Positions 43,403-59,097 of a stretch of DNA of 64,000 nucleotides are shown piece by piece (position 1 is the first letter of the stretch; each line of letters opens with the position of its first letter). Location of the stretch: assembly GCF_020524585.1 (NCBI RefSeq), contig NZ_JAIVLK010000001.1:434001-498000 (forward strand), in the 5' to 3' direction. The position numbers and the translations under genes were made by a program. This DNA comes from Celeribacter naphthalenivorans (lineage in GTDB: Bacteria; Pseudomonadota; Alphaproteobacteria; Rhodobacterales; Rhodobacteraceae). Below the pieces are notes generated by a model. The model saw only the letters and a list, made by a program, of their open reading frames with translations, had not been told where the DNA came from and ran no database searches.

Positions 43403-43477
43403 TGGAGCGGGCGAGGCGATTCGAACGCCCGACCCTAACCTTGGCAAGGTTATGCTCTACCCCTGAGCTACGCCCGC
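43403..43477 (-). tRNA. tRNA-Gly (GCC), copy 1
   Basis: Minus strand GCGGGCG acceptor, anticodon stem TAACC/GGTTA with loop TTGCCAA (GCC), T arm with TTCGAAT, encoded CCA. The sequence is identical to the copy at 43594-43668. Confidence 0.97.
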
Positions 43478-43593: not shown

Positions 43594-43668
43594 TGGAGCG
43601 GGCGAGGCGATTCGAACGCCCGACCCTAACCTTGGCAAGGTTATGCTCTACCCCTGAGCTACGCCCGC
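43594..43668 (-). tRNA. tRNA-Gly (GCC), copy 2
   Basis: An identical 75-base copy of the downstream tRNA-Gly, 116 bases apart and likely in one transcript. Confidence 0.97.
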
Positions 43669-56956: not shown

Positions 56957-57043
56957 GCTCAGCCTTCCCCTCTGACCTCTGTGAAAGACCTCCGTCCAAA
57001 ACGCCGCAGCTCCGGCGCGATGTCTCATGCCTGAACAAAAAAA

Positions 57044-57078
57044 CACCCGCGTCCAGGGAGGAGGAGAGGACGCGGGTG
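57044..57078 (-). ncRNA. CcsR-like hairpin 8 with terminator
   Basis: Perfect 11-bp stem CACCCGCGTCC/GGACGCGGGTG, loop with CCTCCTCCC, followed on the minus strand by TTTTTTT. It is the last of the array and doubles as its intrinsic terminator. Confidence 0.85.
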
Positions 57079-57087
57079 CTCTTGCAT

Positions 57088-57116
57088 CGGACCACGAGGG
57101 AGGAGGAGTGGGTCCG
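57088..57116 (-). ncRNA. CcsR-like hairpin 7
   Basis: Stem CGGACC(C)AC/GTGGTCCG with one bulged base and CCTCCTCCC in the loop. Confidence 0.78.
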
Positions 57117-57131
57117 TATCTGTAAAGAAAT

Positions 57132-57165
57132 GCGGCGGTGTCAGGGAGGAGGAAGACACCGCCGC
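57132..57165 (-). ncRNA. CcsR-like hairpin 6
   Basis: Perfect stem GCGGCGGTGTC/GACACCGCCGC, loop with CCTCCTCCC. Confidence 0.85.
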
Positions 57166-57174
57166 CTTCAGTCA

Positions 57175-57204
57175 CGATCCCTCAGGGAGGAGGAAGAGAG
57201 ATCG
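57175..57204 (-). ncRNA. CcsR-like hairpin 5
   Basis: Stem CGATC-CTC/GAG-GATCG with a mismatch, loop with CCTCCTCCC. Followed downstream of hairpin 4 by a small GGGGC/GCCCC hairpin (57211-57223) in the wider spacer. Confidence 0.78.
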
Positions 57205-57232
57205 CATCTCTGGGGCGAGGCCCCGTATTGGT

Positions 57233-57265
57233 GCGACGATGCAAGGGAGGAGGAAGCATCGTCGC
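57233..57265 (-). ncRNA. CcsR-like hairpin 4
   Basis: Perfect stem GCGACGATGC/GCATCGTCGC, loop with CCTCCTCCC. Confidence 0.85.
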
Positions 57266-57277
57266 TCTGGTCTTCAA

Positions 57278-57303
57278 GGCCCCAGGGAGGAGGAGAGGGA
57301 CCC
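57278..57303 (-). ncRNA. CcsR-like hairpin 3
   Basis: Stem GGUCCC/GGGGCC with one G-U pair, loop with CCTCCTCCC. The weakest stem of the array. Confidence 0.7.
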
Positions 57304-57320
57304 CGAATTCCGGTATCTGG

Positions 57321-57357
57321 TGCGGCAGCGCCAGGGAGGAGGAGAGGCGCCGCCGCA
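57321..57357 (-). ncRNA. CcsR-like hairpin 2
   Basis: Stem TGCGGC-GGCGCC/GGCGC-GCCGCA with one mismatch, loop with CCTCCTCCC. Confidence 0.82.
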
Positions 57358-57360
57358 GGT

Positions 57361-57394
57361 ATCAGGGCCTCAGGGAGGAGGAGGAGGCCGTGAT
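57361..57394 (-). ncRNA. CcsR-like hairpin 1
   Basis: Stem ATCA-GGCCTC/GAGGCC-TGAT with a one-base mismatch, loop with CCTCCTCCTCCC. It is 9 bases after the DUF1127 stop. Confidence 0.82.
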
Positions 57395-57402
57395 GAGAAT
57401 TC

Positions 57403-57618
57403 TTATTTGCCGTATGCGGCCTCGTGGGCCACAGCGTTGATGGACGCGCGGGACATGCCCAGATCGCGCAGGTCGCGGTCGCTCAGGCTGGAAAGCTCCA
57501 GCATCGTTTCACGGTAAACGCGGTAACGGGCGAAGCGTTCCCCGAGTGCTTTGAACAGACCGCCAAAAGATGCGGAGGAGGCCGTTGCGGCACTGTTGAT
57601 GTCGTTTACGTAAGCCAT
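57403..57618 (-). CDS. DUF1127 protein, CcaF1-like
   Basis: A 71-residue small basic protein of the DUF1127 family, with the C-terminal YRETMLELSSLSDRDLRDLGM signature (about 36-56) and SRASI. In R. sphaeroides the homologous CcaF1 is an RNA-binding protein that takes part in maturation of the linked CcsR sRNAs and RNA turnover. The position directly upstream of the eight-hairpin array supports that assignment. AAGGTGA precedes the start codon. Confidence 0.88.
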   Translation of the reverse strand: MAYVNDINSAATASSASFGGLFKALGERFARYRVYRETMLELSSLSDRDLRDLGMSRASINAVAHEAAYGK

Positions 57619-57993
57619 GTGACTTTCACCTTAGATATGCGTTCGGACCGATGTCCGCAGGATGCGCCGCCGCTTACTCCCTTCGGGCTTCTGCCGGTCT
57701 TCGAGTGAACCATCTGGTTTTTCGAAGCGAACCGCTTTGCTGCGGTCGAAGGTGCATGCCTTGGCTGCTGTTGAACCTAATATTGTGGAATTGCTGCGAT
57801 TGCACAATCCGTCCTCTTGGCATTGCCGCTATGCAGAATATGCATGAGTCGTACTGACCTATTTTGCATAGCTCCCCGATTTCGCCCAAAGGGGCAGGGC
57901 GCGCGCCGGATTGAGCGCTGGAAATAGGTCAGTAAACCCCCTATTTCATGGGGAAAGGCGACAAAGCCGCCGAAAACTGAAAGAGGGGACCCA
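57619..57993. other. Divergent intergenic region of the DUF1127 and mrp genes
   Basis: 375 bases without a gene. It should hold the DUF1127-array promoter and the mrp leader. A 13-bp inverted repeat (57852-57934) and TGCA/CACAAT palindromes are visible; short frames are non-coding. I could not place a sigma-32 promoter with confidence. Confidence 0.6.
57852..57934. repeat. Long-range inverted repeat in the mrp leader
   Basis: TACTGACCTATTT (57852-57864) pairs perfectly with AAATAGGTCAGTA (57922-57934) across a 57-base loop, 60 bases upstream of mrp. Confidence 0.72.
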
Positions 57994-59097
57994 ATGTCCG
58001 TCACGCAAGATCAAATCATGGCTGAACTGCGCAAAGTGGCGCTGCCCGGGGGCTCGAACTTGGTGGAATCCGACCTTGTGCGGGCTTTGACCCTACGTCA
58101 GGGAACGGTCAGTTTCGTGATCGAGGCGCCGGATGCGGCCACGGCTCAGGCTTGGGGGCAGGTCGAATCGCAGGCAAAAGCCGTGCTTGAGGCCTTGGAT
58201 GGCGTGGAAAAGGTCTCCATCGTCATGACGGCACATGGTCCGTCATCGGGGTCGTCCGCGCCGAAACCGGCGCCAGCCGCCGGAGGCGAGCCGCCGAGCC
58301 TCAAGATCGGCCGCCATCCGACCCCGCAACAGGGCAAGCAAGGCGTGCCGGGCGTCAAGCACATCATCGCCATCGCGTCGGGCAAGGGCGGCGTGGGCAA
58401 ATCCACCGTCTCCGCCAATCTCGCCGTGGCGCTGGCGCGTCAGGGGCGCAAGGTCGGCCTCTTGGATGCCGACATCTACGGCCCGTCGCAGCCGCGCATG
58501 ATGGGGATCAACAAACGCCCCGCCTCGCCAGATGGTCAGACCATCGAGCCGTTGCACGCCCATGGCGTCACGCTCATGTCCATCGGCTTTATGATCCCCG
58601 ATGGCGAAGCGGTCGTTTGGCGCGGGCCGATGTTGATGGGCGCGATGCAACAGATGCTGGGGCAGGTGGCCTGGGGCGAGCTGGATGTGCTTTTGATCGA
58701 TATGCCGCCGGGCACGGGGGATGTGCAACTCACGCTGGGGCAAAAGACCGAACTCACCGGCGCGCTGGTGGTCTCGACGCCGCAGGACGTGGCGCTGATT
58801 GACGCGCGGCGCGGCATTTCGATGTTCGAAAAGCTGAAAGTGCCGGTGCTGGGCCTCATTGAGAACATGTCCACCTATGTCTGTCCGAACTGTGGTCACG
58901 AAGATCACATCTTTGGCCATGGCGGCGTGGCGCAGGAGGCGGATAAGCTCGGCGTGCCGCTTTTGGCCGAACTGCCGCTGGCGATCGAGGCGCGGCTTGC
59001 GGGCGACAATGGCACGCCCGTGGCGGTCGGCGACGGACCGCTGGCGGCGCCTTATATGGCACTCGCTGAGCGTCTGGTGAAAGACGGCGTGGCCTGA
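57994..59097 (+). CDS. mrp: Mrp/NBP35 family iron-sulfur carrier ATPase
   Basis: A 367-residue P-loop ATPase (ApbC/Mrp) that binds and delivers Fe-S clusters. An N-terminal DUF59/MIP18-like domain (about 1-90) precedes SGKGGVGKST (129-138), IDMPPGTGDVQLT and CPNC (Cys297, Cys300), the bridging Fe-S ligand pair. The start codon follows GAGGGG. Confidence 0.94.
   Translation: MSVTQDQIMAELRKVALPGGSNLVESDLVRALTLRQGTVSFVIEAPDAATAQAWGQVESQAKAVLEALDGVEKVSIVMTAHGPSSGSSAPKPAPAAGGEPPSLKIGRHPTPQQGKQGVPGVKHIIAIASGKGGVGKSTVSANLAVALARQGRKVGLLDADIYGPSQPRMMGINKRPASPDGQTIEPLHAHGVTLMSIGFMIPDGEAVVWRGPMLMGAMQQMLGQVAWGELDVLLIDMPPGTGDVQLTLGQKTELTGALVVSTPQDVALIDARRGISMFEKLKVPVLGLIENMSTYVCPNCGHEDHIFGHGGVAQEADKLGVPLLAELPLAIEARLAGDNGTPVAVGDGPLAAPYMALAERLVKDGVA

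Follow-up and report, generated by a model that had tools for sequence, protein, structure and literature searches.

The window, meaning the whole 64-kb stretch of DNA analysed here, very probably carries a ccaF1-ccsR operon with the layout of the CIN1 locus. Such an operon would be expressed as one RpoH-type transcript and give rise to four CcsR-like sRNAs, the loops of which would mask Shine-Dalgarno sequences. That DUF1127 genes go together with CcsR-like RNAs in alphaproteobacteria has been published before (CIN1 locus; PMC10253847; here and below, published work is cited from excerpts of the papers), and the array itself is not new. What is new is the analysis of its units and a conserved LysR-type box upstream. 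The gene and the array are placed as follows.

57403-57618, minus strand: DUF1127 (CcaF1-like) gene, 71 aa (open reading frame; PF06568, 44.6 bits, cut-off 23.3)
57039-57394, minus strand: hairpin-RNA array of eight CCTCCTCCC hairpins, 3' of the DUF1127 gene, with a U-tract at its end

The DUF1127 gene and the hairpin array

The first-pass annotation, made from the letters alone, had read the locus as a Cuckoo/CcsR-type array that follows a CcaF1-like DUF1127 gene, and the PF06568 match, the hairpins and matches to the Rfam CcsR1 model (below) bear this out. The short DUF1127 gene is directly upstream of the array on the same strand, as in the CIN1 layout, and a DUF1127 match (E <= 0.001) is present in all 20 genomes of the window's genus. 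Of 30 loci, 23 have the first motif 20-38 nt past the DUF1127 stop codon and five have it 51-87 nt past; the remaining two have none. The neighbouring genes in the window encode an Mrp/ApbC-type ATPase (57994-59097), divergent from the DUF1127 gene, and a Hint-domain protein (PF13403; 55767-56924), convergent with the array.

There are eight exact copies of CCTCCTCCC in the window, all on the minus strand (57056-57381), compared with a mean of 0.63 and a maximum of 2 in 100 dinucleotide shuffles. Genome-wide the motif is not enriched: counted over the two strands it has 33 matches, 8 of them inside the array, and the reversed pattern has 31. Read 5' to 3', the motifs are 39, 49, 40, 60, 41, 46 and 42 nt apart, in agreement with the annotated spacing of 39-60 bases. 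The 371-nt stretch of the array folds at -173.8 kcal/mol, whereas 100 shuffles average -116.3 (sd 5.1) and none is as good (z -11.2). The eight motifs all fall in loops, which measure 12-13 nt and close on stems of 8-16 pairs, so that the eight minus-strand stem-loops with the motif in each loop are recovered as annotated, as is the run of TTTTTTT that directly follows the last hairpin (H8). A simple scan for sigma-70 promoters and terminators found neither, the terminator rule admitting loops of 3-8 nt only.

We aligned the array across 13 of the 21 loci of the genus, the window and 12 congeners (alignment A2; L116, L119-L124 and L125 were left out), and scored it on the window's own fold. 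Standard pairs make up 95.2% of stem cells. Both sides have changed in 19 of the 99 stem pairs. Column shuffles give 9.4 on average and slid controls 1-6, the comparison with slid versions favouring the window fold because the structure was derived from that very fold. Further pair types are no higher than in the control (55 against 55.3, same alignment). Five of the 99 pairs belong to a small hairpin that lacks the motif and stands between H4 and H5; one part of it pairs poorly (34.6%). Taken together, the hairpins look real and under selection.

Conservation is uneven among them: invariant positions over the 13 sequences amount to 91% in H6 and 82% in H4, and to 38-71% in the rest, with H7 at 38%. 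This suggests copy-specific constraint, a claim that stops short of differing targets, and the annotated idea that individual copies could specialise finds indirect support only, from the difference between H6 and H7.

Four probable RNAs of two hairpins each

A covariance-model search with the Rfam CcsR1 model (83 positions) gave four full-length matches in the window. Each spans a pair of hairpins end to end and together they tile the array.

57317-57401, minus strand: CcsR-like unit 1 (H1 57361-57394, H2 57321-57357); RF02791 CcsR1 1-83/83, 53.2 bits, E 5.4e-12; fold
57228-57310, minus strand: CcsR-like unit 2 (H3 57269-57311, H4 57233-57265); RF02791 1-83/83, 33.5 bits, E 3.8e-6; fold
57127-57208, minus strand: CcsR-like unit 3 (H5 57174-57205, H6 57127-57169); RF02791 1-83/83, 37.7 bits, E 2.1e-7
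57038-57126, minus strand: CcsR-like unit 4 (H7 57088-57116, H8 57039-57083); RF02791 1-83/83, 39.6 bits, E 5.6e-8; fold

None of the four units reaches the RF02791 gathering score of 65.3, so we do not file them as members of RF02791. Two matches to RF02344 (ar14), of 52.2 and 48.1 bits, are likewise below gathering (58.8) in the window and run across unit borders. At gathering scores the Rfam scan of the window returns three tRNAs only, CcsR1 being seen only in the E-value scan; two minus-strand tRNA genes (43406-43477 and 43597-43668) have equal Rfam scores and are perhaps a tandem duplicate.

The motifs are also paired by position. Over 110 loci (a set that leaves out L099-L102, L104, L105 and L125-L134) the spacing is bimodal (peaks at 36-47 and 60-71 nt). 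Second hairpins mostly have CGGYR or CGACR ahead of the motif (235 of 267), unlike first hairpins (46 of 273). In one-per-genus arrays of at least six motifs, 293 of 326 gap triples zigzag, a share of 0.90 compared with 0.60 when shuffled. Because the spacing alternates and the CcsR1 model covers each pair, the window most likely holds four CcsR-like RNAs with two hairpins apiece.

The first-pass annotation had instead called the locus an expanded version with eight sRNAs, and we rejected such an expansion. RS0680a (CcsR1) of R. sphaeroides has two stem loops (PMC3927594). The 23-mer printed as the Northern probe for RSs0680a (CcsR1) of R. sphaeroides 2.4.1 (PMC3688512) has exact matches in Cereibacter (Luteovulum) azotoformans (L103) and in C. 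johrii (L104 and L105, one assembly). Both L103 and L104 have a DUF1127 gene and eight motifs, which their spacing groups into four pairs (39/66/38/76/40/73/40 in L103). Since loci that carry the CcsR1 probe also have eight motifs, eight hairpins are no expansion of CcsR1-4. Low scores are also found beside a CcsR1 of high score: in L142 (G051:C4:691300-692900) there are seven two-hairpin units, five of them nearly identical, and one matches CcsR1 at 106.2 bits while the six others score 39.4-47.3 bits, leaving 6 of 7 under gathering. Should L142 belong to R. sphaeroides 2.4.1, the four units published for that strain may be an undercount. An array of eight separate single-hairpin sRNAs, twice the R. 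sphaeroides set, would agree with the stable hairpin that each motif has to itself and with the nearly even spacing of some arrays in the family, such as L036 (15 motifs). We nevertheless think it very improbable, as the spacing alternates, first and second hairpins are unlike, the CcsR1 model fits pairs rather than single hairpins and the named Cereibacter CcsR loci have eight motifs too. The counting unit is thereby corrected: a hairpin is not an sRNA, eight hairpins make four CcsR RNAs and, with the two-hairpin unit, arrays become comparable across genera.

Array size across the family

At least one tight motif pair is present in 105 of 148 family genomes (one per genus), compared with 21 of 148 for a reversed control pattern, matches to which can overlap the arrays themselves. 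For array size we counted [CT][CT]TCCTCCC in the largest cluster of each locus; a DUF1127 match was found in 136 of 149 genomes, the best-scoring match of 89 was taken and the count leaves out L052, which is the second locus from its genome. A genus that counts low may therefore hold its array at another DUF1127 gene, as in G127, which has no motif at L098 and motif pairs elsewhere. The comparison of copy number across the family puts the window's eight at the commonest size (17 of the 89 one-per-genus loci) in a range of 0-17; eight or more motifs are present in 40 of the 89 and more than eight in 23. The eight-hairpin array is a common layout in the family and is not enlarged.

Within the window's genus 19 of 21 loci show 6-9 exact motifs, some counting one that lies apart, and the layout is mostly paired; L111, with seven motifs, has the same paired layout. 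In L124 there are four motifs at 44, 111 and 63 nt and the paired layout is lost. In the congeners L120-L123 the array goes on with hairpins that bear a shortened loop motif, ATCCTCCC, perhaps decaying copies. Along most of the 17-motif array of L031 (G050:C41) the gaps recur in a cycle of three (about 43, 45 and 52), which suggests growth by three-hairpin modules. Arrays appear to grow by two-hairpin modules and, in this one case, by three-hairpin modules.

The upstream region

There are two elements upstream of the DUF1127 gene.

57779-57807, minus strand: promoter-like region, TTGTGCANNYGCAGCA (57792-57807) and -10-like CCACAATATT (57779-57788)
57821-57845, minus strand: LysR-type box, palindrome ATGCATATTCTGCAT (57831-57845) and TGCATAGCGGCAATG (57821-57835)

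We compared 90 upstream regions, all from loci that have two or more motifs and in which the start codon was recognised: 70 loci of other genera (the window counted among them), 19 congeners and L103. The evidence for a promoter consists of conserved TTG and -10-like elements. TTGTGCA is kept in 85 of the 90 regions. TTGTGCANNYGCAGMA is kept in 84, and in 50 a -10-like element comes after it; TTGTGCANNYGCAGCA occurs once in this genome. The region is compatible with a promoter for RpoHI/RpoHII, from which a start site may be placed.

A box within three mismatches of CAATGCAGCCATGCA, the VtlR site quoted in PMC12595884, is present in 84 of the 90 loci, compared with 52 of 1800 shuffles, and in 82 its start is 27 or 28 nt ahead of TTGTGCA. 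Conservation of the box is partly raised by shared descent because the loci are homologous. When the congeners and L103 are set aside, 65 of 70 loci carry it within three mismatches, and on this ground we rejected a chance match as the origin of the upstream block. The box of the window, taken alone, is not significant (one match with three mismatches, 2.83 expected). The palindrome ATGC-N7-GCAT is found in 79 of the 90 regions. The VtlR consensus GCAT-N3-TG-N3-T (PMC7486931) is present in its strict form in only seven of the 90, and the relaxed GCAT-N4-G-N3-T stands at a fixed place in 82. The T by which the two forms differ is replaced by A or G in 77 of the 82 registered boxes, and the window has GG instead of TG. 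The box is presumed to lie some 65 nt ahead of the start proposed above, its second half-site overlapping -35, and sites of LysR activators are classically placed in this way. The conserved LysR-type box is a testable candidate for a switch of the operon besides RpoH, and it may link the operon to a second stress sRNA.

Proposed mode of action

Expression, processing and targets of CcsR RNAs are known from R. sphaeroides (PMC10253847, PMC8625941, PMC7866481, PMC8307010, PMC3320616), and for the window we rely mostly on that model. There, the gene and the sRNAs are co-transcribed from an RpoHI/II promoter (PMC3320616). By analogy, a single minus-strand transcript would start at the RpoH-type promoter, about 150-190 nt upstream of the DUF1127 gene, and transcription is probably helped by a LysR-type activator that binds some 65 nt ahead of that start. 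The transcript would run through ccaF1 and the four two-hairpin units and stop at the eighth hairpin and its U-tract, H8 with TTTTTTT probably doubling as the terminator. RNase E and CcaF1 act in CcsR maturation in R. sphaeroides (PMC10253847, PMC8625941), and in the window RNase E, with the CcaF1-like protein, may cut the spacers between pairs to release four CcsR-like sRNAs. These spacers hold short AU stretches such as ATTTCTTT, which are compatible with cutting by RNase E.

Every sRNA would then display CCUCCUCCC in two rigid loops. There is a CCUCC in CCUCCUCCC and in GGATCACCTCCTTTCT, which is taken as the 3' end of 16S rRNA and occurs once in the genome. CCUCCUCCC should pair with purine-rich Shine-Dalgarno regions, and translation of selected mRNAs would be lowered under oxidative or heat stress. 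In R. sphaeroides the FlhR mRNA is a target of CcsR1-4 (PMC8307010). An exact 9-nt complement 3-11 nt before an ATG is found at eight places in the genome, compared with one for the reversed control, and one of the eight is the array's own antisense. Three of the seven other places have an open frame of at least 75 codons at the ATG (an ABC transporter ATPase of 362 aa, a GAF/Fis-type regulator of 318 aa and a 75-aa protein without a Pfam match) and the remaining four have frames of 10 codons or fewer. These three are candidate targets, and the exact-9-mer prediction is weak.

Two other roles for the hairpins have to be weighed, and either may coexist with the operon of four trans-acting sRNAs. 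The array may be a sink, in which the anti-Shine-Dalgarno-like loops titrate an RNA-binding protein (the CcaF1-like protein or Hfq) or Shine-Dalgarno-rich mRNA generally. This would sit well with a loop that stays constant while arrays range from 0 to 17 motifs and with the many RNAs that CcaF1 affects in R. sphaeroides (PMC10253847), but copies that are conserved as unequally as H6, H4 and H7 suggest copy-specific constraint, and we consider a sink unlikely. The hairpins may otherwise act mainly in cis, with little activity in trans, by forming a structured 3'UTR through which the ccaF1 mRNA is protected or terminated. The likeness of the last hairpin to a terminator and the short distance from the DUF1127 stop codon to the first motif in most loci speak for this role. 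If the stems served for protection, however, there would be no need for all eight hairpins, and those of other genera too, to keep the same CCTCCTCCC loop as their stems diverge, and CcsR1-4 do target an mRNA in R. sphaeroides (PMC8307010), so that a role mainly in cis seems highly unlikely.

A possible LysR-plus-RpoH regulon

The box TGCATRGCNGCAWTG has one exact match in the genome, upstream of ccaF1, and ten matches with one mismatch; the reversed control has none. One of the ten, the other nine of which were inspected as 91-nt stretches, lies directly after a LysR-type gene and in front of an sRNA-like sequence. The row of gene, box and sRNA-like sequence is at L149 (G000:C5:327668, minus strand) and L163. 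It is the sRNA-like sequence that the Rfam SorY model matches end to end with 63.8 bits (gathering 111; E 9e-12). SorX (41.4 bits) and mmgR (33.6 bits) match the same sequence, below gathering, and it sits behind a promoter-like CTTGAAC..CCCCTAAAT.

The LysR-type gene has PF00126 and PF03466 and is classed by these domains only; its best solved relative, 9hh1, is named as LysR family only, and none of the 25 NCBIfam matches listed for it reaches its cut-off. Nearly all family genomes (144 of 148) have a match to the regulator with E <= 1e-60. Among the 30 best of these loci ATGC-N7-GCAT is found 3' of the gene in 23, compared with 10 of 3000 shuffles; the stricter box, within three mismatches, is found in only 8 of the 30 (9 of 1500 shuffles). 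A SorY match is present in seven of eight such regulator loci, the eighth (L170) having neither a SorY nor a SorX match. The sRNA is best called SorY/SorX-like because SorY never reaches gathering and SorX passes it in three loci, at the same place. Additionally, a DUF1127 paralogue (L161, G000:C10:232750-232854) has the palindrome ATGCATTTTGTGCAT upstream, with no CCTCCTCCC within the stretch examined. The only trxB above cut-off (G000:C1:94214-95122) is not beside the LysR-type regulator, and the 621-aa frame that follows this trxB is read as a putative ATP-sulfurylase/APS-kinase fusion.

These data make a LysR-plus-RpoH stress-sRNA regulon plausible. We propose, tentatively and with somewhat more doubt than confidence, that family-wide one VtlR/LsrB-like LysR regulator, together with RpoH, drives the ccaF1-ccsR array, the SorY/SorX-like sRNA and the second DUF1127 gene. 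If true, a LysR regulator with DUF1127 and anti-Shine-Dalgarno sRNAs would form a circuit of long standing in alphaproteobacteria, with the number of two-hairpin units as its evolving dial. In a set of 14 papers compared by term counts, those that mention CcsR all count zero for VtlR and LsrB, and the link may still be published.

Comparison with known systems

The locus can be compared with the VtlR/LsrB circuit of the Rhizobiales, in which a LysR regulator acts on DUF1127 genes and AbcR sRNAs. As in that circuit, there is a CAATGCAGCCATGCA-like box before the DUF1127 gene and a LysR-type gene beside an sRNA-like sequence with a similar box. In contrast with it, the T of the box is changed in most loci and trxB is not next to the regulator. 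The neighbouring sRNA matches SorY and SorX models and the sRNA of the VtlR circuit is AbcR; we do not claim that the two are identical.

The array shares an ultraconserved loop motif and variable stems with ar14, NfeR1, SmelA075 and SmelA099 (RF02344; PMC10746234, PMC3927594). The RNAs of this group, unlike the units of the window, are described in the excerpts with three or four hairpins, and the ar14 matches of the window are below gathering.

The Cuckoo RNA family was reportedly defined by Reinkensmeier and Giegerich in 2015 with two to four hairpins per RNA. As in that family and the CIN1 locus, the window has adjacent hairpins with CCUCCUCCC in their loops and variable stems beside a short DUF1127 gene, and the hairpins form CcsR-type two-hairpin units by spacing and by below-gathering CcsR1 matches. 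We found no difference that would exclude the array from this family, the window array exceeding two to four hairpins only when counted as a whole.

The closest likeness is to ccaF1-CcsR1-4 of R. sphaeroides (RSs0680a-d; RF02791), where a DUF1127 gene is likewise followed by pairs of CCTCCTCCC motifs. The stem sequences differ from those of CcsR1 and all four scores are under gathering, but the CcsR1 model matches each pair of the window end to end. Consistent with this, the window has eight motifs, 38-42 nt apart within pairs, as do the Cereibacter loci that carry the CcsR1 probe; between pairs the distance is 46-60 nt in the window and 66-76 nt in L103.
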